From: a virus
DNA length: 25,496 nt
Strand: one strand, 5' to 3'
Virus record (IMG/VR): IMGVR_UViG_3300037961_005010
Location: 95,588 to 121,083 of that record
The notes under the pieces are model-generated. The model had not been told where the DNA came from. It did no database searches and was given only the letters and a program-made list of their open reading frames with translations. Both the position numbers and the translations under genes were made by a program. This document shows, piece after piece, positions 1-20,866 of this stretch (its first letter is position 1; each line of letters opens with the position of its first letter).

Positions 1-1689
1 TACGAAGAGTTTGGAAATCTCTATACATTATACAAAGAAAACCATCAAAAGTTTATTGACTATAACATTAAAGACGTACAATTAGTTGATCGTATTGATG
101 CAAAGATGGGTCTTATATCTTTAGCATTGACTATGGCTTATAAAGGTGGAGTCAATGTAAATGACACGTTTGGAGTTACAAACATATGGGAATCAATTAT
201 TTATCGTAGATTACTCAGTAAAAATATAGTATCGCCTATAAAACAAATTAATAAAGTGCCTTACTCTATTGTAGGCAATCCAGATAGTGAACATAAAACT
301 TCTATTGCTGGAGGTTTTGTAAAAGATCCTCAAGTTGGCGGACATGATTGGGTAGTTTCTTTTGATTTAAATTCTCTATATCCTAACATTATTGTTCAAT
401 ACAATATTTCACCTGAAACTTTATTGAGATCTCACAATATAAGATTTCCCTCAGGCCCTGCAGCATATTTATCTAATTATAAATCTGACGAACAAATATC
501 AGACAAATACTCAGTGACCGCTTCAGGCGTTCCTTTTACAAAAGATAAGCAAGGTATTATTCCTGAACTTATCACAGAGTATTATGATGAAAGATCTCAG
601 ATAAAACGTAAAATGCTAGATGCAAAATCAGCATATGAGAAAACAAAAGAATATAAACTAGAGTCTGAAATCAACCAACTTGAAAATAATCAGATGGCAA
701 TTAAAATTCTTTTGAACTCTCTTTATGGCGCTCTAGCTAACAAATACTTTAAGTATTTTGACAATGCTCTTGCTGAATCAGTTACACTTACTGGTCAGCT
801 ATCAATTAAGTGGGCAGAAGAAGCTATCAACAAAGAGATGAATAAAATACTAAAGACTGATAAAGATTATGTTATAGCAATTGATACCGATTCAGTTTAT
901 ATAAACATGGGCCCTTTAGTTAAAAAGTTAAATCCACCAGATCCTGTTCAAGCGCTTGACAAAATATGTCAAGATCACTTTGAAAAAGTTATCGCGGCAG
1001 CATACGATCGACTGTTCCACTACATGAATGCCTTTACCTCGAGAATGGAAATGGGTCGTGAAGTAATTGCTGACCGCGGTATCTGGACTGCTAAAAAGCG
1101 ATATATACTTAATGTACACAACAACGAAGGTGTACAGTATGCTGAGCCTAAACTAAAGATAATGGGTATTGAAGCTATTAAATCTTCTACTCCAGAAGTT
1201 GTAAGAGATAAGTTCAAAGCTATATTTAAGATCATGGTTACTGGTGATCAGCAAGCAACTCGTAGATTTATTGATGAGTTTAGAGAATGGTTCAAGACTT
1301 TACCGCCCGAGCAAGTAGCTTTTCCTCGTGGTGTAAGTCAAATAGATAAGTGGAAAGATAGAAGAAACATATATGGAAAAGGTACACCTATTCATGTGAG
1401 GGGCGCGCTACTTTATAATCATGAATTACAAGACAAAGCTCTCACAAAAAGGTATGGCGCAATACAATCTGGTGAAAAGATAAAGTATTCTTATTTAAAA
1501 CTGCCGAATCCAATACGTGAAAATATAATATCATTCCCTGACTATCTACCACCTGAGTTTAACCTTCATAAATACATAGACTACGATATTCAATTTGAAA
1601 AAACTTTTATTGAACCAATAACACCTATTCTTGAAGCTGTAGGTTGGTCAGTAAAAGAAGAAGCGACACTGGAGGACTTTTTCGCATGA
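1..1689 (+). CDS. 43: Family B DNA polymerase, T4 gp43 type (5' end outside window)
   Basis: Replicative DNA polymerase with 3'-5' proofreading. The frame is open from base 1, so the N-terminal half is missing and 562 residues are visible. Exonuclease motif III (YNIKD) is encoded at 61-75. The polymerase motifs follow in order: motif A DLNSLYPNI near 364-390, motif B KILLNSLYGALANKYF near 703-750, and motif C IDTDSVYIN near 880-906, with the catalytic Asp residues intact. The last residues, TLEDFFA, resemble the C-terminal peptide by which T4/RB69 gp43 docks on the gp45 sliding clamp. Two other proteins in this window end almost the same way. The stop overlaps the next start as ATGA. An internal ATG at 106 is not the true start, because coding similarity continues upstream of it. 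Very confident. Confidence 0.97.
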   Translation, partial: YEEFGNLYTLYKENHQKFIDYNIKDVQLVDRIDAKMGLISLALTMAYKGGVNVNDTFGVTNIWESIIYRRLLSKNIVSPIKQINKVPYSIVGNPDSEHKTSIAGGFVKDPQVGGHDWVVSFDLNSLYPNIIVQYNISPETLLRSHNIRFPSGPAAYLSNYKSDEQISDKYSVTASGVPFTKDKQGIIPELITEYYDERSQIKRKMLDAKSAYEKTKEYKLESEINQLENNQMAIKILLNSLYGALANKYFKYFDNALAESVTLTGQLSIKWAEEAINKEMNKILKTDKDYVIAIDTDSVYINMGPLVKKLNPPDPVQALDKICQDHFEKVIAAAYDRLFHYMNAFTSRMEMGREVIADRGIWTAKKRYILNVHNNEGVQYAEPKLKIMGIEAIKSSTPEVVRDKFKAIFKIMVTGDQQATRRFIDEFREWFKTLPPEQVAFPRGVSQIDKWKDRRNIYGKGTPIHVRGALLYNHELQDKALTKRYGAIQSGEKIKYSYLKLPNPIRENIISFPDYLPPEFNLHKYIDYDIQFEKTFIEPITPILEAVGWSVKEEATLEDFFA

Positions 1690-6543: not shown

Positions 6544-6767
6544 AGTGGTTAATTGTAATGACTCTTTTATATGCAGATCCTTTTGCTGTGGAAACTTTAA
6601 AATTTGATACTAAAGAAGAATGTGTAAAGTACGTAACGAATGTAGATAACGCTCAAACTTTAGCTATAGAAGTTATTGCTAAAGCAGGATTTCATGATAG
6701 AGTTACATCAGTATTGTGTTTGCCTGAACAAAACAATACTCTTATTAAAAGGAAATATAATGGCTAA
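6540..6767 (+). CDS. Small exported Cys-containing protein
   Basis: 75 residues. A short hydrophobic N-terminus, KWLIVMTLLYADPFAV, looks like a signal or anchor. The rest carries Cys in 'KEECVKY' and again in 'SVLCLPE'. The same layout is seen in the products at 20867 and 23743, suggesting a small phage family with one disulfide. The start overlaps the preceding stop (ATGA), and the 3' end overlaps the PEP carboxykinase start by 8 nt. Function not recognised. Confidence 0.6.
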   Translation: MKWLIVMTLLYADPFAVETLKFDTKEECVKYVTNVDNAQTLAIEVIAKAGFHDRVTSVLCLPEQNNTLIKRKYNG

Positions 6768-7974
6768 CATTGAAATAACTACAATGCCAACTGGTCGTTC
6801 TCCAGAAAATAAAATATTTTATGGATCAAAAACTCGTAACTTAGATTTAAGCAGACCAAAATATAATAAGATAGGTGAAGAAAAATACTTTTGGGAGTTT
6901 TATGAAGATTTAAATGAGTATGAACACGAATGGGTTTTAGTTTTTTACACTAGTGGTTTATGTTTCCGCGTTGAAACTAATGATGATAGACACGCGCAAT
7001 TCGTTAAAAATATGTTTAAAGTTGAAGAAGATCCATATAATCATACGGCTGATTGGACTATCATACATAACACAGAAATAAAAGTTCCTCCATCTATCGC
7101 CGTTCATTTAGACGAGCAAGTAATGTTAATAGGTGGAACTACGTTCTTAGGTGAAATAAAAAAAGGAGTCTTTAGTATTCTTGGTTTTACTTTACCTGAA
7201 TCAGGTATTTTACCCATGCACTGCGCAGCTTTTACTTACGAAAACACTACTAATTTAATGTTTGGATTAAGTGGAACAGGAAAAACTACGTTAAGTAGCG
7301 ATCCAGACTTTATGTTAATTAGTGATGATGAAGTTTCATGGAATGACAAAGGAATTAAAAAAATAGAAGAAGGATGTTATGCAAAATCTGAAGGTTTGAG
7401 TCCAGAAACTCATCCTACTATTTTTAATGCTGTTGAAGAAGCAAAGAAAAGAGAAACATTAGTTGTAGAAAATCCAAAGGCAGCAAATGCAAGATTAAGT
7501 TATCCTTTAGATTGTGTGCTAAATGCTTGGATTGAACAAGAAGATTTCGCTCATCCAAACAACATATTCTTTCTTACAATGGACGCAACTGGAAGTTTTC
7601 CAGCAGTGAGTAAAATATCAGGAGAAACAGTAAGAAGATTTTTTGAAACCGGTTACACAAGCCAGATGCCAGGAACAGAAGCAGGAGTAAGTGAAATCAA
7701 AAAAACATTTTCACCTTGCTATGGTTCACCATTTATGCCAAGAAAAATACAAGAATATAGCGATATGCTTATGGAAAAGATAGATAAACATAAGGCAAAC
7801 GTATATCTAGTAAATACTGGAATGGATAAAGATGGAAAAAGATTTAAATTAGATTTTACAAGAAATTGTATAAAACATGTAATGTCTAATGAATTGCACG
7901 ATACAAGTGAAGAAGTACTAGAAATTTTGGAGAATTTGTTAATTGAGAATAATAGCGGGCCCATGTCAGCATGA
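6760..7974 (+). CDS. pckA: Phosphoenolpyruvate carboxykinase (ATP), short form
   Basis: 404 residues. It converts oxaloacetate and ATP to phosphoenolpyruvate, CO2 and ADP. TGRSPENK (11-18) carries the substrate Arg, GGTTFLGEIKKGVFSI matches the Y-x-GE-x-KK-x-x-F region, and GLSGTGKTTLS (169-179) is the PEPCK P-loop. LISDDEVSW with D189/D190 is the metal-binding kinase-2 motif, and GCYAK, GYTSQMPGTEAG, FSPCYGSPFM and VYLVNTGMDKDGKR complete the family signatures. It is roughly 130 residues shorter than bacterial enzymes (about 530-540), mainly at the N-terminus. The start is chosen for AAAAGGA at 6747-6753. KdsA, which consumes PEP, begins inside its 3' end, suggesting dedicated PEP supply. 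Very confident on family. Confidence 0.93.
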   Translation: MANIEITTMPTGRSPENKIFYGSKTRNLDLSRPKYNKIGEEKYFWEFYEDLNEYEHEWVLVFYTSGLCFRVETNDDRHAQFVKNMFKVEEDPYNHTADWTIIHNTEIKVPPSIAVHLDEQVMLIGGTTFLGEIKKGVFSILGFTLPESGILPMHCAAFTYENTTNLMFGLSGTGKTTLSSDPDFMLISDDEVSWNDKGIKKIEEGCYAKSEGLSPETHPTIFNAVEEAKKRETLVVENPKAANARLSYPLDCVLNAWIEQEDFAHPNNIFFLTMDATGSFPAVSKISGETVRRFFETGYTSQMPGTEAGVSEIKKTFSPCYGSPFMPRKIQEYSDMLMEKIDKHKANVYLVNTGMDKDGKRFKLDFTRNCIKHVMSNELHDTSEEVLEILENLLIENNSGPMSA

Positions 7975-8701
7975 GACATTATTTAAATCATTAGAAATCG
8001 CAGAACACTGTCAAGAAGTATGTGATAAGTATGATGTAGAGTATTACTTTAAAGCTAGTTATGATAAAGCAAATAGATCTCATGTAGATAACACAAGAGG
8101 TGTAGGATTACATGACACTATAAAAGATTTTCTGCAAATGGAAGAATCAATTGGTGTTAAGATTTTAACTGATGTACATGAAATAGAGCACATCCAGTAT
8201 TTAAAAGATGTTGTTAAGGTATTACAAATACCAGCATTTCTGTGTCGACAGACTGATTTAATACAAGCTGCATGCAAAACAAATTGTATTGTAAACATTA
8301 AGAAAGGTCAGTTTCTTGCGCCAGCTGATGTATATGGCATACTAAGTAAAACCGACGACGCAAAAGAAGTATGGATTACAGAGAGAGGTACAAGTTTTGG
8401 GTATGGGCGTCTTATTAATGATTTCACTGGCATGTACGATATCCTTTGTAATTTACATGGCAATTTTGTTTACGATGTTACACACTCGGTCCAACAACCT
8501 GGAGGAACCTCGACTGGTGGAAATCGTGATTATGTGCCTGGTCTCGCTCGCGCTGGGGCCGCTCTTGGTATTACTTCTTTTTTCTTAGAAGTACATCCTG
8601 AACCTGATTATGCACCAAGTGATGGTGCAAACATGTTAAAGCTTGAAGATTTTGAAGATGTAGTAAAGGATATTAAAAGGTGTAGTTATGAAAGCAGGTA
8701 A
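7943..8701 (+). CDS. kdsA: 3-deoxy-D-manno-octulosonate-8-phosphate synthase (KdsA), metal-dependent type
   Basis: 252 residues. It condenses PEP with arabinose-5-phosphate to KDO-8-phosphate. IIAGPC opens the barrel; Y/FKASYDKANR (36-45), TDVHE, PAFLCRQTDL, KKGQFLAP, ERGTSFGYGRL, DVTHSVQQPGG and LEVHPEPDYAPSDGANM are all family blocks. C8, H181, E216 and D227 match in kind and spacing the metal ligands of class II (metal-dependent) enzymes such as the Aquifex one. The start is TTG at 7943, since GPC must lie near the N-terminus and GGAG lies at about 7929-7932. It overlaps the PEP carboxykinase gene by 32 nt. It is slightly short (usual length about 270-285). Confidence 0.93.
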   Translation: MRIIAGPCQHETLFKSLEIAEHCQEVCDKYDVEYYFKASYDKANRSHVDNTRGVGLHDTIKDFLQMEESIGVKILTDVHEIEHIQYLKDVVKVLQIPAFLCRQTDLIQAACKTNCIVNIKKGQFLAPADVYGILSKTDDAKEVWITERGTSFGYGRLINDFTGMYDILCNLHGNFVYDVTHSVQQPGGTSTGGNRDYVPGLARAGAALGITSFFLEVHPEPDYAPSDGANMLKLEDFEDVVKDIKRCSYESR

Positions 8702-9029
8702 AGTATGGGGAATGACAGAGTTAATCGAAGCTAACGGTGCTCTGGAGTTTCATAGAATTGAAATGAATAAAGGTGGTGTTTGTTCAAAACATTTACATGA
8801 GTTTAAATGGAATGGCTTTTATGTTGAGTCAGGCACTATGCTTATACGTGTTTGGCAAAATGATTATGACTTAATAGATGAGACAATATTATATCCAGGA
8901 GATTATACCAAAGTTAAGCCCGGTGTAAATCATCAATTTGAATGCTTAGCGGATGGCGTAGCTTATGAATTGTATTGGGCTGAATTTAATCACAATGATA
9001 TTGTAAGAGAAACGGTAGGTCACAAATGA
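8688..9029 (+). CDS. Small single-domain cupin
   Basis: 113 residues. A cupin fold is seen in EMNKGGVCSKHLHEFKWNGFYVESGTMLIRVW (motif 1 with H-x-H ... E) and PGDYTKVKPGVNHQFECL (motif 2). It resembles the metal-binding cores of sugar-phosphate isomerase or epimerase cupins such as type II phosphomannose isomerase, but is too small for a firm substrate call. It lies between KdsA and a nucleotidyltransferase, overlapping both, so a role in the same sugar pathway is likely. AAAAGG upstream supports the start. Confidence 0.75.
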   Translation: MKAGKVWGMTELIEANGALEFHRIEMNKGGVCSKHLHEFKWNGFYVESGTMLIRVWQNDYDLIDETILYPGDYTKVKPGVNHQFECLADGVAYELYWAEFNHNDIVRETVGHK

Positions 9030-9439
9030 GAGTAGGTTTTACCTGTAGTACTTTTGATTTGCTTCACGCTGGTCATGTCATGATGCTTAGAGAAGCAAAA
9101 TCACAGTGTGATTATTTGATAGCTGGTTTACAAGTAGATCCATCCATAGATCGTAAAGAAAAAAATTCTCCAATACAAACAATTGTAGAAAGACAAGCAC
9201 AGTTAGAAGCTATAAAATATGTAGACGAAGTCATAATTTATTGTACAGAAGCTGACTTACTTGATATAATAAACATGTATCCAATTGATGTTAGGATACT
9301 AGGTGAAGAGTATAGATCAAATGATTTTACTGGCAAAGACGAATGTAGAAATCGTGGAATAGAACTATACTTTAATAAGAGAGATCATAGATTCAGCTCA
9401 AGCGGTTTAAGAAAGAGAGTATGTAATGAAACTGAATAG
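9026..9439 (+). CDS. Glycerol-3-phosphate-cytidylyltransferase-like nucleotidyltransferase
   Basis: 137 residues. FTCSTFDLLHAGHVMMLREAK has the H15-A-G-H18 active site. RKEKNSPIQTIVERQAQLEAIKYVDEVI is the family's R-x-x-x-L-x-x-x-x-Y-V-D segment, and FSSSGLRKRV near the end is the (T/S)-S-x-x-(L/I)-R-x-R nucleotide-binding motif. It attaches CMP (or another NMP) to a phosphorylated polyol or sugar. Its ATG overlaps the cupin stop (ATGA). It is the third HxGH enzyme of this window. Substrate inferred to belong to the KdsA branch only from position. Confidence 0.85.
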   Translation: MRVGFTCSTFDLLHAGHVMMLREAKSQCDYLIAGLQVDPSIDRKEKNSPIQTIVERQAQLEAIKYVDEVIIYCTEADLLDIINMYPIDVRILGEEYRSNDFTGKDECRNRGIELYFNKRDHRFSSSGLRKRVCNETE

Positions 9440-10109
9440 TGTACACGATATACGTGAATTCTTTAAAGGTGAACTAAAAGATGGAGAATTTACTATAGAT
9501 AAAACCGGCCAGAAAACAATTGAACTTCTTGGCGCAAGTTTTATTGCTTCTGAACCAGCGATTTTTGGTACACCTAGCCAAGAGTATATAGAAAAAGAAT
9601 TAGCCTGGTATCAATCTCAATCCACTAACATTTATGATATAAATGGTGTAGATTCTGATGCTCCTCCTGCAGCTTGGCAGTACGCAGCTAATAAACATGG
9701 CGAGATAAATTCTAACTATGGTCACTTGATTTGGTCAGATAAATATTATAACCAGTATGGACACGTCTTAGATGAGCTGTTAAATAATCCTGATGGCCGA
9801 AGAGCATCAATGATTTATAACAGACCAAGCATATGGATGGAGTTTGATGAAAATGGAAAATCAGATTTTATTTGTACTAACGCTGTCACTTACTATATTC
9901 GTGATAATATACTTCATTGCGTAGTTCAAATGAGAAGTAATGATGTAATCTTTGGTTATAAAAATGATTATGCTTGGCAGTTCAGCATACTAAATCAGTT
10001 GTGTGATGAGTATAATAATTTAACTATGGCTGGTATTGAAGTTGGTCATATGATCTGGCAAGTACAAAACTTGCATGTTTACGAAAGGCACTTCAATCTT
10101 GTCAAATAA
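9426..10109 (+). CDS. 42: dCMP hydroxymethylase (T4 gp42 homologue)
   Basis: 227 residues. It transfers a methylene group from CH2-THF to dCMP to give 5-hydroxymethyl-dCMP, the precursor of hydroxymethylcytosine DNA. It is a thymidylate-synthase-fold protein, recognisable as gp42-like by DKTGQKTIELLGASFIASEP, GEINSNYG, NPDGRRASMIYNRPS, SDFICTNAV with catalytic C150, and MRSNDVIFGYKNDYAW. D181 in the last block corresponds to the Asp that makes T4 gp42 select dCMP instead of dUMP. It ends about 20 residues earlier than the T4 enzyme, right after LHVYERHFNLVK. dCMP deaminase follows with an overlap. Its presence together with an a-gt homologue predicts glycosylated hydroxymethylcytosine DNA. 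Confidence 0.93.
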   Translation: MKLNSVHDIREFFKGELKDGEFTIDKTGQKTIELLGASFIASEPAIFGTPSQEYIEKELAWYQSQSTNIYDINGVDSDAPPAAWQYAANKHGEINSNYGHLIWSDKYYNQYGHVLDELLNNPDGRRASMIYNRPSIWMEFDENGKSDFICTNAVTYYIRDNILHCVVQMRSNDVIFGYKNDYAWQFSILNQLCDEYNNLTMAGIEVGHMIWQVQNLHVYERHFNLVK

Positions 10110-10533
10110 ATGGGATCATAGATATTTGTCCTTAGCTGAAGAGGTCGGCCGCTGGTCAAAAGATCCTTCTTCTCAAATAGGTGCAGTAGCAATAGGATCA
10201 AAAGGACAAGTTCTAGCACAAGGTTACAATGGATTTCCTCGAGGAATATTAGATAGTACAACACGATTAACTGACCGCCAAATAAAATATAAGTACATAG
10301 TTCATGCAGAACAAAATCTTATATACAACGCTACATTTAATGGTGTATCTTTAGATGGTTCTACTTTATACGTAACAGGTTTACCAGTTTGTTCAGAATG
10401 TGCTAAAGGTGTTATTCAAGTAGGAATAAAACGAGTTGTTATGCCAATCCAAACTATTTCTAGATGGAAAGAATCATGGGAGTTATCTGCATCAATGTTT
10501 GACGAAGCTGGTATATCTCACGAATTTATATGA
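10099..10533 (+). CDS. cd: dCMP deaminase
   Basis: 144 residues from TTG 10099. Zn-dependent deamination of dCMP to dUMP, feeding ThyX. NKWDHRYLSLAEEVGRWSKDPSSQIGAV is a typical opening, HAEQN holds one Zn ligand and the catalytic Glu, and GLPVCSECAKGVI holds the two Cys ligands. GYNGFPRG is also conserved. The TTG start is preferred because GAAAGG lies at 10083-10088 and homologues usually begin just before NKWD. An in-frame ATG at 10075 would add 8 residues and a longer overlap with gp42. With gp42 it partitions dCMP between hydroxymethyl-dCMP and thymidine synthesis. Very confident on function, less on start. Confidence 0.92.
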   Translation: MSNKWDHRYLSLAEEVGRWSKDPSSQIGAVAIGSKGQVLAQGYNGFPRGILDSTTRLTDRQIKYKYIVHAEQNLIYNATFNGVSLDGSTLYVTGLPVCSECAKGVIQVGIKRVVMPIQTISRWKESWELSASMFDEAGISHEFI

Positions 10534-11264
10534 GTGTAATATTACAAAATTTTGATAAGTATTATGAAGACGCTTTAGAAGTGTTTCAAAATAGAAGTAT
10601 CAATGTAGATGTAACTCATAGGTGTTTGCTTCAATGTCCATTTTGCTCTCGTCAAAGTTATGACGGAAAGGACATGGTGAGACAATCTCAAATCATGTAT
10701 GGCGACTTATATGATTTAAATGCTGAAGATATCGGCAACACTTTTGACGTGCTATCTTTGTGTGGACAAATATCTGATCCAATATACCACTCTAATTTTT
10801 TAAACATAATGAAAATTTTTATGAATACTTCTTGTAAAAGAATAGATATTCATACAACTGGATCTCATAAGAAAAAAGATTGGTGGAAAGAACTAGTAGA
10901 AATATCTGCAGACCCACAAAAGAATGTAAGATTCATATTTGGAATAGATGGAATAGACGAAAAATCGTCATATCATAGAATAAATCAAAACACTGATCAG
11001 GCATTTGAAGCGATGAAAGTAGTTTCTGACTACTTAAAAGCAAATAAAGATTCTAATATAGAAGTAATATGGCAGTACATACCTTTTAAATATAATGAAA
11101 ATGATATAGATAAAGCAATAGATATTGCAAACGATATGGGTGTGAAACTTTTGATGCTAAAATCTGGAAGATTTAGAACTTCTGGTAATATATTAGAACC
11201 TCCATCAAATCCTGACTTGTTTAACACTAAACAATTTGCAGAAAGAGTTTATATAAATGAATAA
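10530..11264 (+). CDS. Radical SAM enzyme, copy 1 (core only)
   Basis: 244 residues. DVTHRCLLQCPFCSR carries the C-x3-C-x2-C cluster (C32, C36, C39) that binds the SAM-ligated 4Fe-4S cluster. Downstream are LSLCGQISDPIYH, a GxIxE-like region, and IFGIDGIDEKSSYHRINQN. The auxiliary-cluster domain usual for SPASM-type enzymes is not in this protein but in the next gene, which overlaps it by 8 nt. A second, similar pair follows. The ATG overlaps the deaminase stop (ATGA). The reaction is unknown; context of nucleotide and sugar genes suggests modification of a sugar, nucleotide or small peptide. Confidence 0.87.
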   Translation: MSVILQNFDKYYEDALEVFQNRSINVDVTHRCLLQCPFCSRQSYDGKDMVRQSQIMYGDLYDLNAEDIGNTFDVLSLCGQISDPIYHSNFLNIMKIFMNTSCKRIDIHTTGSHKKKDWWKELVEISADPQKNVRFIFGIDGIDEKSSYHRINQNTDQAFEAMKVVSDYLKANKDSNIEVIWQYIPFKYNENDIDKAIDIANDMGVKLLMLKSGRFRTSGNILEPPSNPDLFNTKQFAERVYINE

Positions 11265-11625
11265 ACCTTTTCACATTGAGCCAAGATGTTTTCCTTTTGA
11301 TAAAGATGGAAATAACATAAAAGATAAAATGCAAAACTGTCCAGCTCACACTGCATCAGGATACTTATTGCCGTGTTGCTGGTTAGATAGGTCTAATATT
11401 GTAGCAAACAACGATGATTTAAATGGAATACGTGTTCCAGAATTACATTTAAGAAATAAAATTACTTATGAACAAATTATGAAATCTAAGCAATGGAAGA
11501 ATTTTTATAAGCAATTATTTGAAGATCCAGAAAAAGCACATGACATCTGTAAAGAATGTTGTGGTTGGGTTACACATGACGACGGGTCTAAACAAGAGTT
11601 TTGGAAATATAAAGATGAATTTTGA
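11257..11625 (+). CDS. SPASM-like auxiliary Fe-S domain protein, copy 1
   Basis: 122 residues. Cysteine-rich: C11, C28, the pair C40-C41 in GYLLPCCWLDR, and C98/C101/C102 in DICKECCGW. The layout 'G-x-x-x-PCCW ... L ... S-x-x-W-x-x-F ... C-x-x-C' resembles the SPASM/auxiliary-cluster tails of radical SAM enzymes, here as a free-standing protein. It is probably a partner subunit of the radical SAM core encoded just upstream (8-nt overlap, so translationally coupled). It does not read as a frameshifted remnant: it has its own ATG, and the same split is repeated in the second pair. Confidence 0.72.
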   Translation: MNKPFHIEPRCFPFDKDGNNIKDKMQNCPAHTASGYLLPCCWLDRSNIVANNDDLNGIRVPELHLRNKITYEQIMKSKQWKNFYKQLFEDPEKAHDICKECCGWVTHDDGSKQEFWKYKDEF

Positions 11626-12379
11626 AAATTCATATAATCATTATTTAAATCACTTACAAGAAAAAGCTACTTTAAATATAGAACCTACACATAGGTGTAT
11701 TCTACAATGTGTCTTTTGTAGCAGAACTGGAGAGTTTGGTTTAAAGAAAATAAAAGATTGGAGAAAATCATACGGTGATTTAAAACCAAGTGATGCTAAA
11801 TTAATTGGAAAATATTTTAAAAGAGTTACGTTTTGTGGATCTATATCTGATGTAATATACCATCCTAATTTAATAGAAGTAGTTGATTCTTTAATACATC
11901 CAGAGATGGATTATATAGAATTTAGAACCAATGGGTCTGGAAAAAAGTTAGAGTGGTGGGAAGAATTAGTAGATGTTTTAAATACGTATGAGCATTTAGG
12001 TAAAAGATTTATATTCGGCATAGACGGAATAGACCAAAGGTGTTCTATAAACAGAGTAAATCAAGATTTTGAAAGTGCTTATGAGGCTATGGATTACGTA
12101 GCTGGAAATCTAATTTCAAATAATATGCATAGCACTACATGGCAATACATACCTTTTGGGTATAACGAAAAAGATATTCCTAAAGCCTTTGAAATGGCAC
12201 AAGAACTAAATGTTTCTTTTATGATTTTAAAATCTCCAAGATTTGGTGTAGATCCAAAAAGAAAAGAAATAAGCCCGCCAACTAATCCTAATTTAATATC
12301 ACCTTCAGGCTTTAACGAAGAAACAATAATCGAAAACGATTTTGAACTTAGAAGGTTTTTACATGCAAATAAAAATTAA
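11615..12379 (+). CDS. Radical SAM enzyme, copy 2 (core only)
   Basis: 254 residues. EPTHRCILQCVFCSR has the C-x3-C-x2-C motif (C28, C32, C35). It shares with copy 1 the blocks FCGSISDVIYHPN, WWEELV, RFIFGIDGID, INRVNQ, WQYIPFGYNE, ILKS-x-RFG and PP-x-NP, so the two arose by duplication. ATG 11615 overlaps the preceding stop by 11 nt; a longer upstream extension would run through the SPASM-like gene and is rejected. The accessory Fe-S domain again follows as a separate gene. Reaction unknown. Confidence 0.87.
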   Translation: MNFENSYNHYLNHLQEKATLNIEPTHRCILQCVFCSRTGEFGLKKIKDWRKSYGDLKPSDAKLIGKYFKRVTFCGSISDVIYHPNLIEVVDSLIHPEMDYIEFRTNGSGKKLEWWEELVDVLNTYEHLGKRFIFGIDGIDQRCSINRVNQDFESAYEAMDYVAGNLISNNMHSTTWQYIPFGYNEKDIPKAFEMAQELNVSFMILKSPRFGVDPKRKEISPPTNPNLISPSGFNEETIIENDFELRRFLHANKN

Positions 12380-12716
12380 ACCTAAGTGCTGGCCAGTAAA
12401 TGAAAATGGTGAAAGAGATGACTCTCTTGCAAGAATGCCTCCGGCTTTTTCTGCTAATGGATATTTTTTCCCTTGTTGTTGGATGGAAAAAACTGAATAT
12501 GTAGAAAAAAATATTCATAACTTATTTGATGAAGAGTTAAAAATTACTAATATCGAAAGTGTAGATGAGGTTTTTAATTCTGAACAATGGAAAAAATTTT
12601 ATATGACTATGTTGTTCGATCCAAATAACATTTGTGATGTATGCAAAATTATGTGTGGTGTCGTTATAGATCATAATGAAGAAGAACATGAATATTGGAA
12701 ATGGATAAAAAAGTAG
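12363..12716 (+). CDS. SPASM-like auxiliary Fe-S domain protein, copy 2
   Basis: 117 residues. It parallels copy 1: C9 in KPKCWPVNENG, C38-C39 in GYFFPCCWMEK, the SEQWKKFY helix, and C91/C94/C98 in NICDVCKIMCG. It lacks a counterpart to C28 of copy 1, so the two may hold their clusters differently. The start is ATG 12363 with GAAGG about 7 nt upstream; the 17-nt overlap with copy 2 of the radical SAM core implies coupling. It ends the long operon that began near 4549. Confidence 0.72.
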   Translation: MQIKIKPKCWPVNENGERDDSLARMPPAFSANGYFFPCCWMEKTEYVEKNIHNLFDEELKITNIESVDEVFNSEQWKKFYMTMLFDPNNICDVCKIMCGVVIDHNEEEHEYWKWIKK

Positions 12717-12745
12717 TTTACAAATCTATTTTTTTATGATAGAAT
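12717..12745 (+). promoter_or_regulatory. sigma70-like promoter (TTTACA-N17-TAGAAT)
   Basis: TTTACA at 12717-12722 and TAGAAT at 12740-12745 with a 17-nt spacer ending in TATGA. The predicted start, about 7 nt after the -10 element, falls on the ATG at 12752, so the transcript may be leaderless. It drives the UDG-like / glycosyltransferase / sugar-nucleotide / methyltransferase operon. Confidence 0.77.
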
Positions 12746-12751
12746 AATATT

Positions 12752-13123
12752 ATGAGTAAAATTATATTTGTAGGCATGAACCCGTCGAAGGTTCCAGTGA
12801 GCAGATCTAAAAGTTCTGCTCATAAACGTTTTCATTCTTGGCTAGATTATTTAGATTTAAATCATGTTTCATTTACTAATCTTTCATTTGATCCTGAATG
12901 GGATTTAAAATTTAAAACATTCGATCACACTTTATTGTGTACAACTCTACAAAATTATGATAAGATAGTAGTATGGGGATCAATGGTATCTAATTATCTC
13001 AAGAGATTAGGCTTCACAAATTATTTTGAATTACCACATCCATCTGGATTAAATCGTAAGATTAACGATCATAAATACGTATATCACACACTAGATAAAT
13101 GCAAGGAATATATAAATGACTAG
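12752..13123 (+). CDS. Uracil-DNA-glycosylase-superfamily-like protein
   Basis: 123 residues. IIFVGMNPSK at the N-terminus and ELPHPSGLNRKIND near the C-terminus match the G-x-NP and HPSG-x-NR motifs of the UDG-like superfamily (family 4/5-like and small phage members). A central VVWGSMVSNYL strand matches the usual 'hhhhG' strand. It is small for a complete glycosylase (usually about 180-230 residues), so the activity may differ. It is the first gene of the DNA-modification operon. The start coincides with the predicted transcription start and has no ribosome binding site; starting at M9 would cut off the first strand of the fold. Function beyond superfamily is not claimed. Confidence 0.65.
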   Translation: MSKIIFVGMNPSKVPVSRSKSSAHKRFHSWLDYLDLNHVSFTNLSFDPEWDLKFKTFDHTLLCTTLQNYDKIVVWGSMVSNYLKRLGFTNYFELPHPSGLNRKINDHKYVYHTLDKCKEYIND

Positions 13124-14363
13124 AATCGCTATTGTTCTTGGCCGCGGCACTGAAGGTTGTGGAGTTACACAATGTGCTATTCAAATGCAAAAAGTTACAG
13201 ACGCACATATATTTACTACAACTGATAAGAAATGGGGAAGAGCTAAAGGACTAGACATAGAGCAAAACGAATTTTCAATGTCAAATGATTGGGAGCTAAC
13301 TGCTGATACTATTAACAATTGTTTTGACTTATGCATTATATATTCAGTTCCTTCAAAAGGACATCCACAAGAATGTCAAGATAATTTTATTCCATTCCTT
13401 AAACACATTAATATTCGTAAAGCTTTTATTAACGTAGACCATAAAGCAGCTTCTATTGCACGTAATGCTAATCTGAAAGAAGTCTGTGAAAACGTAGATG
13501 TTATTATGACTCATAGTATGGAAAATGATTTCTGTAAGTTTATGAGGAAGAATAAAATAGAAACACCTCTTACGAAGATGGGATTAGGTTTTGACTATGA
13601 TGGTCACCGTGCAAAGTATTGGCGTCCTATCGAAGAACAACAACACAACATGGTGAGATGGATTGGTCGTACTGCTATGTGGAAAGGACCAAGTGTTATG
13701 ATTGATTTCCATCAAGATGCTTTGATGGAACAAGGATTCATCACTGTCCTTGAAGGATTAGAAGCTTCTATACAATATCCTTTAGTTTTGTATAGAGATA
13801 ATAAATCAGATAATCCTACAGATCGTAGAATTGTAGAAAATCATTTCAGACCTGAGAAACAATTTAATGAAGTAAAGTTTACACCTGATCTGTATGGAAA
13901 AGAAGTTGAAGGTAAAGGTGCATATCTTTATCCACAATATATAAACTCAGAAGCAATGGACCGTATGTCACGTTCAGCGTTTGGTTCAGACTTATACTTT
14001 TTAAAAGCAGAGCATTATGGCAATAACATAGAAAATTGCCACGCTGAATGCATAGCTTCTGGTACAGTTCCATTATTTCACAAACACTTTTGTGATAATG
14101 TAATTCATCCTGTACAAGGTAAACCAATTAGTCAATGTCAAAATTCTGGTACTCTTGGCGTTGATCATACTAACTTTAATGAGTGCCGCGACCAAATGGT
14201 CAAACTTAAAAATGATCCTGCGATGAGAGATGATTGGAGAGAGATGGCTTTTGAATTTTGGAAACAACACTCCGATGGAGAAATGGTTGTAAAAGAAATT
14301 ATCGATCTCGCTTTGAACACTACTAGCAACCAACCACAAGGACTCGAGGAATTTTTCGCATGA
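13116..14363 (+). CDS. agt: DNA alpha-glycosyltransferase (T4 alpha-glucosyltransferase homologue)
   Basis: 415 residues, GT-B fold. T4 a-gt transfers glucose from UDP-glucose to 5-hydroxymethylcytosine in DNA. Matching blocks, in order, are GRGTEGCGVTQ (9-19), IIYSVPS, THSMENDFCK, MVRWIGRTAMWKG (179-191), MIDFHQDAL, YINSEAMDRMSRSAFG (275-290) and AECIASGTVPLF (310-321). E311 is the likely nucleotide-sugar-binding Glu. The protein ends GLEEFFA, like the polymerase tail TLEDFFA; the end of T4 a-gt as I recall it lacks this sequence. AAGGA precedes the start at 13103-13107. UDP-sugar epimerase and dehydrogenase genes follow with 4-nt and 1-nt overlaps, so the donor may not be UDP-glucose. Homology very confident; donor inferred. 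Confidence 0.93.
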   Translation: MTRIAIVLGRGTEGCGVTQCAIQMQKVTDAHIFTTTDKKWGRAKGLDIEQNEFSMSNDWELTADTINNCFDLCIIYSVPSKGHPQECQDNFIPFLKHINIRKAFINVDHKAASIARNANLKEVCENVDVIMTHSMENDFCKFMRKNKIETPLTKMGLGFDYDGHRAKYWRPIEEQQHNMVRWIGRTAMWKGPSVMIDFHQDALMEQGFITVLEGLEASIQYPLVLYRDNKSDNPTDRRIVENHFRPEKQFNEVKFTPDLYGKEVEGKGAYLYPQYINSEAMDRMSRSAFGSDLYFLKAEHYGNNIENCHAECIASGTVPLFHKHFCDNVIHPVQGKPISQCQNSGTLGVDHTNFNECRDQMVKLKNDPAMRDDWREMAFEFWKQHSDGEMVVKEIIDLALNTTSNQPQGLEEFFA

Positions 14364-15313
14364 AAATATTTATCACAGGCCAAGCCGGCATGATAGGCTT
14401 CCACTCGGCAAAACACTTTGCCAAGAAAGGATTCGAAGTAGTAGGAGTTGATAATTTCAATGATTACTATGACGTAGAACTAAAACAAGAAAGAGCTAGA
14501 ATATTAAAAGAAGATTATGGTGTTGAAACTATACTCGCTGATATTCAAGATGAAAAGATTGCACGACATAATATGTTTAAAGATGTAGATGTTTTACTAC
14601 ACCTTGCAGCATATGCTAATCCAAGACATGCTCTTGAAGAACCACAACCTTATATTGACACAAATATAACTGGTACACAAAGATTAATAGAAGAAGCTGA
14701 AGAGTGGAACGTTCCAACTGTATATGCTTCAAGCTCATGTGTTATGCATGGTCAGCCATTGCCTTGGAACGAGCATGATCGTCCAGACATGCAGAATAAT
14801 CCATATGGCTGGTCAAAGCGAGCTAATGAATGTCAGTTTGGACACTCTAAATTACCAAGAAGTGCGGGCTTACGTTTCTTCACTGTGTATGGACCATATG
14901 GTAGACCAGACATGGCACTCTTTAAATTTACAGATGCTATTGTAAATGGAAACCCTATGACACTCTATAACTTTGGTGATATGAAACGTGACTTTACATA
15001 TGTAGATGATATTGTACAAGGTATAGAATTAGTAGTTAATAAACTTCTTGACGAAACTGATAAACAATATCATGAAATCTATAACATTGGTTATGGTCAA
15101 CAAGTTGATTTGCTTGAGTTTGTTGATGAAATTGAGAAAAATTTGGACCGTAAAGGAGAACGGATTTTAGCTCCCAAACACCCCGCAGATGTCCCTGAGA
15201 CGTGGTCTGACACCACTAAGTTGCAGGCGTTAGGTTACAAACCTACTACATCAGTGAAAGATGGAATTAAAGAATTCATCACTTGGTATAAAAGTTATTA
15301 CGGAGTTAACTAA
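14360..15313 (+). CDS. NAD-dependent epimerase, UDP-glucuronate 4-epimerase-like
   Basis: 317 residues, extended short-chain dehydrogenase fold. The NAD-binding motif is G7-Q-A-G10-M-I-G13, and DNFNDYYDVELKQERARIL is the typical second block of UDP-glucuronate epimerases. HLAAYANPRHALEEPQPYI, SSSC (124-127), catalytic Y149-x3-K153 and RFFTVYGPYGRPDMALFKFT also match that subfamily. It would convert UDP-glucuronate to UDP-galacturonate; the UDP-glucuronate-making enzyme is the next gene. ATG overlaps the glycosyltransferase stop (ATGA). Subfamily fairly confident; exact product needs assay. Confidence 0.88.
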   Translation: MKIFITGQAGMIGFHSAKHFAKKGFEVVGVDNFNDYYDVELKQERARILKEDYGVETILADIQDEKIARHNMFKDVDVLLHLAAYANPRHALEEPQPYIDTNITGTQRLIEEAEEWNVPTVYASSSCVMHGQPLPWNEHDRPDMQNNPYGWSKRANECQFGHSKLPRSAGLRFFTVYGPYGRPDMALFKFTDAIVNGNPMTLYNFGDMKRDFTYVDDIVQGIELVVNKLLDETDKQYHEIYNIGYGQQVDLLEFVDEIEKNLDRKGERILAPKHPADVPETWSDTTKLQALGYKPTTSVKDGIKEFITWYKSYYGVN

Positions 15314-16128
15314 TGAAGATAGGAATTGTAGGTCATGGCTTTGTTGGAAAAGCTGTTGATTATGGTTTTCATGGATGCAATAAAATTATTATAGATCCAT
15401 TGTATGGAAACGATATAGAAGATTTGGAAAATGAACGTTTAGATGTTACATTCGTTTGTGTTCCTACTCCTATGGGAGAAGATGGATCTATTGACTCTTC
15501 AATCGTAGAAAAGGCAGTAAGATTTCTCAAAAGAAAAGTTACAGGTTTGATTGTAGTTAAGTCTACAGTCACACCTGCAATCGTAGAAAAATTACAAGGT
15601 GGAATGGCAGGTGACAGAGTCATCTACAATCCAGAATTTTTGACAGAAAAAAATGCACAAGAAGATTTCATTAATCCACAAATGCATATTTTTGGTGGAG
15701 CTAGAAATAAAACCAGACAATTAAGTAACATATATAAAGAATATAGCTTATGTAAACCTTGTCCGATATATCACATGTCTGGCCCTGATGCAAGCTTTGT
15801 TAAGTACGGAATCAATTGTTTCTTAGCTTCTAAAGTTTTATGGTTTAATCAATTTTACGATGTTGTAAAAGATTTTGGAGGTAACTTTGGTAGTATCATT
15901 AACGCAATTGGAACTGATAGTCGGATAGGTCAGTCTCACACTCGTGTTCCTGGCTTTGATGGCAAGCGTGGTTATGGCGGCGCTTGTTTTCCTAAAGATA
16001 CAGCAGCGTTTGCAAGTTTTGCTGGAACATTTTCTACGTTAGAAAAGGTTATAGAAGAAAATAATAAGTATCGTAAAGACTACGATAAAGACGAACGTGA
16101 ATTAGCGCAGAATGTAAGCTATGGTTAA
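15313..16128 (+). CDS. UDP-glucose 6-dehydrogenase-like protein
   Basis: 271 residues, short for the UDP-glucose/GDP-mannose dehydrogenase family (usually about 390-450). It oxidises UDP-glucose to UDP-glucuronate with NAD. GIVGHGFVGKAVDYG is the Rossmann motif; VCVPTPMGEDGSID, VVKSTVTPAIVEKL, NPEFLTEKNAQEDFINP (E108) and K164 in FVKYGINCFLASK are conserved. GYGGACFPKDTAA carries catalytic C225 with K228 and D229. The C-terminal UDP-binding domain is missing or reduced, which may change substrate preference. It overlaps both neighbours (TAATG upstream, 8 nt downstream). Confidence 0.87.
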   Translation: MKIGIVGHGFVGKAVDYGFHGCNKIIIDPLYGNDIEDLENERLDVTFVCVPTPMGEDGSIDSSIVEKAVRFLKRKVTGLIVVKSTVTPAIVEKLQGGMAGDRVIYNPEFLTEKNAQEDFINPQMHIFGGARNKTRQLSNIYKEYSLCKPCPIYHMSGPDASFVKYGINCFLASKVLWFNQFYDVVKDFGGNFGSIINAIGTDSRIGQSHTRVPGFDGKRGYGGACFPKDTAAFASFAGTFSTLEKVIEENNKYRKDYDKDERELAQNVSYG

Positions 16129-17311
16129 TTATGCAAGTATAGTTCCTTTAATAGGAGGAGAAACAATAGCTATGGAGCAGGTCTTTGGAAAGAGGCCTGA
16201 CTACATTTTATCGTATACGGACTTTGAAGCAAATGATAGGCAACTTCTTAATTATTACAATAATAGCGTTCCTTATATTAAGCTTGATATGGGTAACCTT
16301 GCACCTCATAGTGTTGATGTGGTCAATACTGTATGCCCTTGTGCTGGCCTCTCTTCCCTTTCTCCTAGCAGCAATGCTGATAGCACTACTAATGATTGGA
16401 TGGTCAAGTCTGCAGAGTACATCATTGAATCAGTACAGCCAACAGTTTTTTGGGGTGAAAATGCTCCAAGATTAGCTAGTAAGATGGGAGAAAAAGTTGT
16501 TAAACAACTTAGAGATATCGCTAGAAAAAATGGATATACATTTAGTATATACAAAACTAAATCTATTCTTCATGGTTTGAGCCAGGTTAGAGATAGAGCC
16601 TTTTACTTTTTTTGGAAAGGAAACAGTGTACCAATATTTGAGTATTACAATAAACCTCATGAAAAAATAGAAGACACTATAAGGAATGCTTCTTCAAATG
16701 AAAAAGATGAGATGTTTGAAACAACTGCTAATCAAAAGATTCCTTCAAAAGAACCTTTCTATGAATACGTTTTAGAAGAAATGCACGGCGGAATATCTCA
16801 CGCTGATTTTTTTAAATCTATTAAAAAGACAACTAATCCTTTACACTACATAGAAGATAAGAAAGTAGATTATCATACTGTGGCTAAATGGATGGATGAT
16901 AAAGGATATGAGAATCACGCTCGTAAGTGTAGAAGAATGGGTGATAAGCTAAAAGCTGGTGGAAACATCATGAGAAAAACAACTGAGATTGGAAAAGATT
17001 TTATTGGTGCTTTTGTAGGGCACTTTCCAATTGAGCTTACACATCCAGATCAAGACAGATATATCAATGTACGTGAAGCATTAGCTATTATGAAAATGCC
17101 TAAAGATTTTAATCTAGTTGGTGGCAAGAAAAATATAAATATGATATGTCAAAACGTTCCTGTTACTACTGCAGCTGACATGGCTAATAATGTAAAAAAC
17201 TTTTTAGCTGGAGATTGTAAAACAGTTGAATCAGAATTCGCAATACAAGATAATAAATCACAAAAGTTTTGGTCCGAGCCAGTTCCTTCAACACTCGAAG
17301 CATTTTTTTGA
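16121..17311 (+). CDS. DNA cytosine-C5 methyltransferase
   Basis: 396 residues. Motif I is VPLIGGETIAMEQVFG (8-23), motif IV VNTVCPCAGLS has catalytic C74 (P-C instead of the usual PPC-Q), motif VI is GENAP (112-116), and motif VIII is QVRDRAFYF (155-163). Motifs IX-X are IGAFVGHFPIELTHPDQDRYINVREALAIMKMP and MICQNVPVTTAADMANNV. It methylates, or possibly otherwise modifies, C5 of cytosine in DNA; the target-recognition part is roughly 190-270. It ends STLEAFF, like the polymerase and glycosyltransferase tails. It is the last gene of the modification operon and follows the dehydrogenase gene with an 8-nt overlap. Its role in a phage predicted to carry hydroxymethylcytosine is puzzling. Confidence 0.88.
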   Translation: MVNYASIVPLIGGETIAMEQVFGKRPDYILSYTDFEANDRQLLNYYNNSVPYIKLDMGNLAPHSVDVVNTVCPCAGLSSLSPSSNADSTTNDWMVKSAEYIIESVQPTVFWGENAPRLASKMGEKVVKQLRDIARKNGYTFSIYKTKSILHGLSQVRDRAFYFFWKGNSVPIFEYYNKPHEKIEDTIRNASSNEKDEMFETTANQKIPSKEPFYEYVLEEMHGGISHADFFKSIKKTTNPLHYIEDKKVDYHTVAKWMDDKGYENHARKCRRMGDKLKAGGNIMRKTTEIGKDFIGAFVGHFPIELTHPDQDRYINVREALAIMKMPKDFNLVGGKKNINMICQNVPVTTAADMANNVKNFLAGDCKTVESEFAIQDNKSQKFWSEPVPSTLEAFF

Positions 17312-17340
17312 TTTACATTTGTCGCAAAATATGGTAGAAT
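17312..17340 (+). promoter_or_regulatory. sigma70-like promoter (TTTACA-N17-TAGAAT)
   Basis: TTTACA at 17312-17317 and TAGAAT at 17335-17340, 17-nt spacer ending in TATGG. It lies in the 53-nt gap before uvsX. The predicted start is near 17347, leaving a leader that carries the AAGGGAG ribosome binding site at 17352-17358. Confidence 0.8.
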
Positions 17341-17364: not shown

Positions 17365-18414
17365 ATGTCTATAATGGATAAACTAAAAAAGAATTCTAAA
17401 TTAAAAAATACAGAAGTTCTTTCAGAATCAAAATTTTTCAATGAAAAAGATATGGTTCCAACAGACGTGCCTATGATAAACGTAGCACTGTCTGGTTCCG
17501 TGGATGGCGGACTTACACCCGGACTTACAGTCTTAGCGGGTCCATCCAAACATTTCAAAACTTCATTTGCTTTGCTAATGGCTGCAGCATATATGAAAAA
17601 ATATCCAGATTCTGTTATGTTATTTTATGACTCAGAGTTTGGCTCTCCACAATCTTACTTTGAACAATTTGATATCGATACATCTAGAGTTCTTCATACA
17701 CCAATTACAAATGTAGAAGAACTTAAGTTTGATATGATTGGTCAGCTTGAACAGTTGGACAGAGATGATAAAGTCGTAGTAGTAATTGATAGTATTGGTA
17801 ACTTGGCATCTAAAAAAGAAATGGAAGATGCTTTAAATGAAAAATCTGTGGCAGATATGTCACGGGCAAAAGCTCTGAAAGGTTTGTTCCGCATGGCAAC
17901 ACCTTATCTCGCTATGAAAAATATTCCAATGTTAGCTGTAAACCATACATATAAAGAAATCGGCTTGTTTCCAAAAGATATTGTTGGTGGAGGTACAGGC
18001 ATTTATTACTCCGCTGATAACATCTGGATCATTGGACGTCAGCAAGATAAGAAAGGCTCTGAGGTACAAGGCTATCATTTTGTAATTAACGTGGAGAAGA
18101 GCAGATATGTTAAAGAAAAGTCTAAGATTCCTATTACTGTTTCCTGGGACGGTGGTGTTCGCAATTACAGCGGCCTTCTTGATGTGGCTCTCGCTGGTGG
18201 CTACGCTACTAAACCTTCCAACGGCTGGTATGCTGAAGTTGATCAGAAGACAGGTGAAGTTGGCGCAAAGGTTAGGCATGATCAAACTTTAGAAGAAGAG
18301 TTTTGGAATCCTATATTTAATAACACTGACTTTAAAGAGTTTATGAAGAAACAATATTCAATTGGATATAAAGATCAAGTATCCATGGACGATATAGTTA
18401 CTGAAGATGCTTAA
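17365..18414 (+). CDS. uvsX: RecA-like recombinase UvsX
   Basis: 349 residues. Strand-exchange protein of T4-type recombination-dependent replication. Walker A is GPSKHFKTS (59-67), the T4-type variant with Lys-Thr-Ser. It is followed by LFYDSEFGSPQSYF, the Walker B-like VVVIDSIGNL, AKALKGLFR, LAVNHTYKEIG and VGGGTGIYYSADNIWII, all as in UvsX. The acidic C-terminus, SMDDIVTEDA, fits the family. It has its own promoter and an AAGGGAG ribosome binding site. It is followed by the small linker gene and gp41, as in other marine T4-like phages. Confidence 0.95.
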   Translation: MSIMDKLKKNSKLKNTEVLSESKFFNEKDMVPTDVPMINVALSGSVDGGLTPGLTVLAGPSKHFKTSFALLMAAAYMKKYPDSVMLFYDSEFGSPQSYFEQFDIDTSRVLHTPITNVEELKFDMIGQLEQLDRDDKVVVVIDSIGNLASKKEMEDALNEKSVADMSRAKALKGLFRMATPYLAMKNIPMLAVNHTYKEIGLFPKDIVGGGTGIYYSADNIWIIGRQQDKKGSEVQGYHFVINVEKSRYVKEKSKIPITVSWDGGVRNYSGLLDVALAGGYATKPSNGWYAEVDQKTGEVGAKVRHDQTLEEEFWNPIFNNTDFKEFMKKQYSIGYKDQVSMDDIVTEDA

Positions 18415-20079: not shown

Positions 20080-20186
20080 ATAGAAATTATAAAAAGACAA
20101 GTATTGGACAAAGAAATATTAAAAAGTCTAGTATGAATAAACATAAGAAACGCGGATATAAAAAATATAGAGGTCAAGGAAAATAA
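20076..20186 (+). CDS. 36-residue very basic peptide
   Basis: 36 residues with 10 Lys, 4 Arg and no acidic residue (net charge about +14); Gly-Gln and Lys-Lys repeats such as KKRGYKKYRGQGK close the peptide. Its ATG overlaps the gp41 stop (ATGA), AAGGG lies about 10 nt upstream, and its stop overlaps the ThyX ATG (TAATG), so coding potential is well supported despite its size. Composition suggests binding to nucleic acid, ribosome or replisome DNA. No family recognised with certainty. Confidence 0.7.
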   Translation: MNRNYKKTSIGQRNIKKSSMNKHKKRGYKKYRGQGK

Positions 20187-20866
20187 TGCATGCACGTCTC
20201 ATATCCCATAGCCAACCCACTGGTCGTATCCACTCAGGAGAACTTGCTCAGACGGGGCTTGATAACATCCAAGACCTCATCGCATATTGTGCCCGTGTCT
20301 CCAATCCAACGAACCAAGCTAACACCAAAACAACGTCAAAGTTACTTGGATATCTCATCAAACACAAGCACTGGTCGCCATTCGAAATGGCATCAGCCTG
20401 TATCGAAGTCGAAACAACAAGAGACATTGCAAGACAATTACTCAGACACAGATCGTTTTCATTTCAAGAGTTTTCTCAGCGGTACGCTGACATCAGGGAT
20501 CTTGCTGGCTCTGTTGTAATACGTAAAGCAAGACTACAAGATACAAAAAATCGTCAAAATAGCGTGATGACTGATGATGTTAATTTGCACATGACTTGGG
20601 AACAGCATCAGAGAAACGTTTGGCATACAGCAATGAAAGCATATGAATGGGCTATAGAAAATGGAATCGCAAAAGAACAAGCAAGAGCTGTTTTGCCTGA
20701 AGGCAACACTCCGTCAAGATTATACGTCAACGGGACTATTCGAAGTTGGATACATTACATTGAATTACGATCAGCCAATGGTACTCAAAAAGAACATATG
20801 GATTTAGCCATTTCTGTAGCAGAAGCTATAGGAAAAATATATCCCGGCATAGTAGAGTTTACTTAA
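20186..20866 (+). CDS. thyX: FAD-dependent thymidylate synthase ThyX
   Basis: 226 residues. It makes dTMP from dUMP with CH2-THF, NAD(P)H and FAD. The ThyX signature RHRSFSFQEFSQRY (87-100) is complete, with LIKHKHWSPFEMASACIEVE upstream and EQARAVLPEGNTPSRLYVNGTIRSWIHYIELR (substrate-binding Arg) near the C-terminus. It completes the dCMP to dUMP to dTMP route begun by dCMP deaminase; there is no ThyA-type dTMP synthase in the window, since the TS-fold protein is gp42. AAGGA at 20176-20180 precedes the start. The first 330 nt are notably richer in G+C (30 of 60 bases at 20221-20280). Confidence 0.95.
   Translation: MHARLISHSQPTGRIHSGELAQTGLDNIQDLIAYCARVSNPTNQANTKTTSKLLGYLIKHKHWSPFEMASACIEVETTRDIARQLLRHRSFSFQEFSQRYADIRDLAGSVVIRKARLQDTKNRQNSVMTDDVNLHMTWEQHQRNVWHTAMKAYEWAIENGIAKEQARAVLPEGNTPSRLYVNGTIRSWIHYIELRSANGTQKEHMDLAISVAEAIGKIYPGIVEFT

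Follow-up and report, generated by a model that had tools for sequence, protein, structure and literature searches.

The window analysed here, a stretch of 25,496 nt (bases 95588-121083 of the 121-kb IMG/VR record IMGVR_UViG_3300037961_005010, classed as linear), belongs to a T4-like myovirus, a marine relative of phage T4, and contains an operon of five overlapping genes that may decorate the phage DNA with an acidic sugar. In order, the genes encode a UDG-like protein, a T4-type DNA alpha-glycosyltransferase (AGT), a UDP-glucuronate-4-epimerase-like protein, a UDP-glucose-6-dehydrogenase-like protein (UGD) and a DNA cytosine-C5 methyltransferase (C5-MTase); coordinates written with two dots below are on the plus strand of the window. 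In the pathway that we propose, hydroxymethyl-dCMP would be made by gp42 and then built into the phage DNA, the short UGD would convert UDP-glucose to UDP-glucuronate (UDP-GlcA), and the epimerase would invert C4 to give UDP-galacturonate (UDP-GalA). The AGT, whose sugar pocket has Val in place of His114 and whose LEEFF tail would tether it to the sliding clamp, would act behind the replication fork and move an acidic hexose, most likely alpha-galacturonate, onto hydroxymethylcytosine. The product would be negatively charged sugar DNA, which should resist restriction. Taken as a whole, this explanation of a clamp-tethered, protective AGT that loads an acidic hexose, probably galacturonate, is one that we favour, if only slightly. 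That the donor of the AGT is not glucose seems likely to us, and if it is not, we would name UDP-GalA with somewhat greater confidence still.

The AGT (415 aa; 13116..14363) matched PF11440 (E 3e-32; 112.5 bits against a curated cut-off of 25) and phrog_2888 (E 2.5e-70), and aligned with the T4 AGT structure 1xv5 along its whole length (E 7e-44). The phosphate and ribose contacts Gly15, Arg204 and Glu311 are all kept. In T4 AGT the glucose contacts are His114, His116 and His140 (PMC6024577, citing the T4 AGT structure). The window AGT keeps His116 and His140, while its alignment to T4 AGT places Val107 (codon 13434..13436) at the position of His114. Since this contact is Val, we named the protein an AGT-family glycosyltransferase and not a glucosyltransferase. 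His114 presumably sits at C6 of the sugar, judging from related GT-B enzymes. The window's genome had no match to the TAGT (second-sugar transferase) or GT4 families.

The state of the glucose contacts largely goes with the neighbouring genes. Among 138 distinct AGTs, 62 had both His114 and His140, 72 had Val114, three had Leu114/Leu140 and one had His114/Tyr140; Val114 was constant throughout the window's AGT clade. No epimerase was detected near any of the 62 AGTs with both histidines. When adjacency counts were restricted to loci with at least 1.5 kb of downstream sequence, an epimerase-family SDR adjoined 64 of 67 altered AGTs versus none of 44 His114/His140 AGTs. Of the three altered AGTs without an adjacent SDR, one (L235) comes from a record with an SDR at another place. 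Two further lineages bearing the epimerase(+UGD) cassette also have altered His114 and/or His140. The first of these, L190 (Leu114/Leu140), carries a different SDR that lacks R185, plus a UGD, and the second, L231, is the Tyr140 lineage.

To keep this count from being circular, we also grouped the AGTs by the cassette instead of by residues, and considered the 35 alignment columns whose conservation in 50 cassette-free AGTs was 93% or more. Each of the three cassette-bearing lineages had two changed columns: H114V and, in 54%, L338I in the Val114 clade, H140Y and P337K in L231, and H114L and H140L in L190. Four of these six changes fall at the three glucose contacts, for which a simple binomial gives a chance of about 7e-4. 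For single lineages the corresponding values were 0.005 for L190 and 0.17 for each of the others.

Related AGTs were found on 80 IMG/VR contigs, in the order gp42, dCMP deaminase, (UDG-like), AGT, epimerase, (UGD), C5-MTase, UvsX, where brackets mark genes that are not always in place. A UGD absent from the operon can lie elsewhere in the record (L004, L038). Because this order recurs in dozens of contigs, it reflects more than chance. A large group of more distant AGT loci consists of gp42, deaminase, UDG-like gene, AGT and C5-MTase, with neither epimerase nor UGD. These cassette-free loci otherwise show the same operon, so the cassette occupies one exact place, the junction of AGT and C5-MTase.

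The two cassette enzymes are candidates for making a uronic acid donor. The epimerase-like SDR (317 aa; 14360..15313) comes closest to UDP-GlcA 4-epimerases, and its best PDB matches were 5u4q and 6zl6 (Bacillus cereus UDP-GlcA 4-epimerase). Ser128, Thr178 and Arg185 are residues unique to the UDP-GlcA 4-epimerase subclass (PMC10107529). Thr178 and Arg185 are present in the window protein together with the catalytic Tyr149 and Lys153, and both subclass residues are kept in 66 of 66 phage epimerases. The UGD (271 aa, a short form; 15313..16128) has the NAD-binding and central domains (PF03721, PF00984) and keeps the catalytic Cys, within GGACFPKD, as well as the catalytic Lys and Asn.

Several findings weigh against the acidic-sugar reading, and the first of them concern these same enzymes. 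The third subclass residue, Ser128, is Cys in all 66 phage epimerases, which is why we label the window protein UGAepi-like and not UGAepi. Loss of R185 turns the B. cereus epimerase into a decarboxylase, and its S128A variant still yields only UDP-GalA (PMC10107529). UDP-GalA is therefore the product that we would expect here, since R185 is kept and S128A causes no decarboxylation in the B. cereus enzyme. A phage epimerase that acts as a decarboxylase is unlikely, given the R185 found in every member. The same residue bears on whether the AGT uses a different sugar of this pathway, modified at C6 or without C6, which could be UDP-GlcA or, should the epimerase decarboxylate as well, a UDP-pentose. 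Loss of His114 would be compatible with any change at C6, and the pairing of a different SDR and a UGD with Leu114/Leu140 in L190 suggests that donors may vary in the family. R185 and the S128A result speak against such a donor, however, as does the retention of the epimerase even where the UGD has moved away (L004), and we consider it improbable.

The UGD raises a further difficulty. Pfam found no C-terminal UDP-binding domain in the window protein, and its TMt to full-length UGDs is about 0.5. All full-length phage UGDs examined are likewise about 260-330 aa long and lack this domain, with catalytic residues kept. The original prediction that UDP-glucose is turned into UDP-GlcA and then UDP-GalA gains support from the epimerase, with its T178 and R185, but is weakened by a UGD without the usual UDP-binding domain. 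A conserved absence of that domain next to an intact catalytic Cys, Lys and Asn would fit an enzyme that oxidises glucose already attached to hydroxymethylcytosine in DNA. Such oxidation on DNA would leave both the UDP-GlcA-type epimerase and the changed AGT pocket unexplained, and the UGD has no clamp motif; we regard it as very improbable.

The remaining counter-evidence concerns the phages in which these genes occur. The changes at His114 and His140 represent only about three independent events. A tree built without the two contact columns had three changes of contact state and four of SDR state, and its two to three independent pairs, which all showed the expected direction or no difference, are too few for significance. 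For two Leu114/Leu140 AGTs (L212 and L221), whose records span 142 and 60 kb, neither an SDR nor a UGD was found there. Moreover, the cassette also occurs in C48C1 and 80 IMG/VR loci, which all hold the epimerase and in 76 cases UGD as well; the genes run polymerase, primase-like gene, epimerase, UGD, UvsX (33480-37226 of C48C1, L251; L252-L331). No AGT, gp42 or C5-MTase was detected in the sequence stretches examined of these phages, and C48C1 and four records of 137-160 kb yielded no gene of the thymidylate-synthase family. If UDP-GalA is made there, it must have another acceptor, since neither AGT nor gp42 was found. Within the window's own genome, GT25- and GT8-like genes lie far from the operon and KdsA/PEPCK-like genes lie near it, and both sets would fit a role in surface glycans.

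These observations would fit an explanation in which the AGT still transfers glucose to hydroxymethylcytosine, as in T4, and the epimerase-UGD pair makes UDP-GalA for glycans of the surface or the virion, or to change the metabolism of the host, and stands next to the AGT as cargo of a polymerase-uvsX hotspot. The polymerase-UvsX interval is indeed known to be plastic in T4 phages (PMC6024577). Against this, the cassette lies between the AGT and its partner C5-MTase with overlapping reading frames, changes of the glucose-contacting histidines accompany it in three lineages, and no His114/His140 AGT has it. We therefore judge continued glucose transfer to be a serious but rather unlikely alternative. 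The idea of a non-glucose donor, as originally put forward, gains from T178/R185, the loss of His114 and the placement of the cassette. The presence of the pair in a sister group of phages where no AGT or gp42 was found speaks against a dedicated DNA role.

The tails of the AGT and the C5-MTase offer a separate, putative link to DNA. The AGT ends in LEEFFA (14343..14360) and the C5-MTase in TLEAFF (17291..17308), both putative binding motifs for the gp45 sliding clamp. A reference clamp client is the DNA polymerase gp43, whose C-terminal part lies in the window (106..1689) and ends in TLEDFFA. Only four of the genome's 163 ORFs have LExFF tails, namely gp43, the late sigma factor gp55 (LEEFF), AGT and C5-MTase, and the motif occurs internally at a rate of 1e-4. 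In T4, tails of this kind on gp43, gp55 and gp33 bind gp45 and are interchangeable (PMC2988020), and T4 AGT binds gp45 as well (PMC13216743). The tail was present on 65 of 70 Val114 AGTs versus none of 58 His114/His140 AGTs, and never on the epimerase, UGD, UDG-like protein, gp42 or deaminase. About half of the C5-MTases counted have the strict form; the others end more loosely, for example in LEAFL or LDAFMV. The AGT and C5-MTase thus carry the tail motif of gp45 clients and may bind the clamp, which points to these two proteins, and not the sugar enzymes, being tied to replicating DNA. Another clamp-like tail, TLDAFFG, ends a Dam-like methyltransferase of C48C1 at the polymerase-UvsX site.

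The proposed acceptor depends on gp42 (9426..10109), which matched T4 dCMP hydroxymethylase (E 3e-68) and keeps Asp179 (GYKND) in place of the Asn of thymidylate synthase. Its similarity to the RB69 5-hydroxy type was only 30%, over part of the protein. The earlier proposal of a gp42 route to hydroxymethyl-dCMP is supported by the T4-type match and Asp179; the phage probably makes hydroxymethylcytosine, and the AGT probably acts on it. We ruled out an RB69-like 5-hydroxycytosine route because the window gp42 is T4-type and far from the RB69 enzyme. The dCMP deaminase (10075..10533; PF00383, E 1e-17) is given as its longest ORF, and its true start possibly lies after gp42. A ThyX-type thymidylate synthase at 20186-20866 stands alongside the gp42-type enzyme in this one phage.

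Compared with known systems, the window comes closest to T4 itself, with a homologous dCMP hydroxymethylase and an AGT that shares G15, R204, E311, His116 and His140; T4 AGT, too, binds the clamp (PMC13216743). The window differs in Val114, in a LEEFF tail at the AGT C-terminus that the T4 enzyme was not seen to have, and in an operon that also holds epimerase, UGD, C5-MTase and UDG-like genes. The arabinosyl-cytosine phages RB69 and NP likewise are T4-like phages that bring genes for sugar nucleotides of their own, placed between polymerase and uvsX, to put a sugar other than glucose on DNA. The RB69 type, however, uses a 5-hydroxy-dCMP synthase (PMC13390438) and a transferase, ORF003c, that is only remotely AGT-like (PMC6024577), whereas the window has a true hydroxymethylase-type gp42 and an AGT. 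Bacillus phage SP-15 carries a uronic acid on its DNA and has a UDP-glucose dehydrogenase gene; in SP-15 the uronic acid is phosphate-linked to dihydroxypentyluracil, with no hydroxymethylcytosine route described (PMC5977210). The B. cereus epimerase 6zl6 shares the SDR fold, catalytic Tyr/Lys, T178 and R185 with the phage proteins and differs at Ser128. Literature searches turned up no relevant paper on galacturonate attached to the hydroxymethylcytosine of phages.

If the proposed pathway is correct, a common kind of ocean phage would have an acidic-sugar form of glycosylated hydroxymethylcytosine, and the residue code at 114/140 together with the gene cassette would predict the DNA sugar from sequence. 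The AGT would be a ready enzyme for adding charged sugars to 5hmC, and these phages would be a test case for escape, through a change of sugar, from defences that recognise glucose on DNA, such as type IV restriction and Brig1-like glycosylases. More tentatively, and with doubt slightly outweighing belief, we suggest a widespread marine T4-like group with 5-(galacturonosyl-oxymethyl)cytosine DNA, in which the donor specificity of a clamp-tethered AGT was switched by the His changes and gain of the cassette, and in which the Leu114/Leu140 and Tyr140 lineages use other sugars.

The C5-MTase (396 aa; 16121..17311; PF00145, E 2.5e-18) has the motifs PC, EN(A/V) and QxRxR, which are invariant in 16 relatives. 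This enzyme, its motifs intact and its tail clamp-like, constantly accompanies the AGT, cassette-free loci included. Its substrate is puzzling, since fully hydroxymethylated cytosine could not receive a C5 methyl group. The 123-aa UDG-like protein (12752..13123; motifs GMNPS and HPSGLNR) probably, though not certainly, belongs to the UDG superfamily. It scored 18.6 bits against PF03167, under the cut-off of 24.3, while 16 of 17 relatives matched (best 2e-5). The GxNPS/HPSxxN motifs are largely invariant, and a model with pLDDT 85 had UdgX as its top Foldseek match (TMq 0.65, with a weak E of 0.014).

The layout claimed in the original prediction, five overlapping genes behind a promoter, was borne out in genes, places and overlaps, and profile, structure-database and residue matches agree with the gene identities proposed, that of the UDG-like gene being only probable. 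A promoter-like site (12717..12745), TTTACA-N17-TAGAAT with its second hexamer preceded by TG, lies 5' of the operon, and a second with identical hexamers (17312..17340) marks its end, before the next transcription unit with the UvsX recombinase (17365..18414). Further similar sites precede gene starts at 2384 and 4514. Taken alone, such consensus matches are weak evidence; with one mismatch or none allowed, shuffled sequence gave 0.85 per strand.

In its major capsid protein the phage is closest, among cultured or complete relatives, to C48C1 (67%), Methylophilales phage Melnitz (62%) and Pelagibacter phage HTVC008M (60%). No close relatives at the DNA level were found in the phage records searched, and an AGT-based search of bacterial genomes for a possible host gave no match. 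Before gp42, a row of PEPCK-like, KDO-8-phosphate synthase (KdsA), cupin and cytidylyltransferase-like genes (6676-9439) suggests a surface-sugar (KDO-like) pathway. Clusters of small GT25/GT8-like and methyltransferase-like genes lie outside the window (G000:C1 1498-4641 and 39568-43215; L082, L084). Directly upstream of the operon (10530-12716) lies a pair of radical-SAM genes with a separate short gene after each; the second short gene is a SPASM match.

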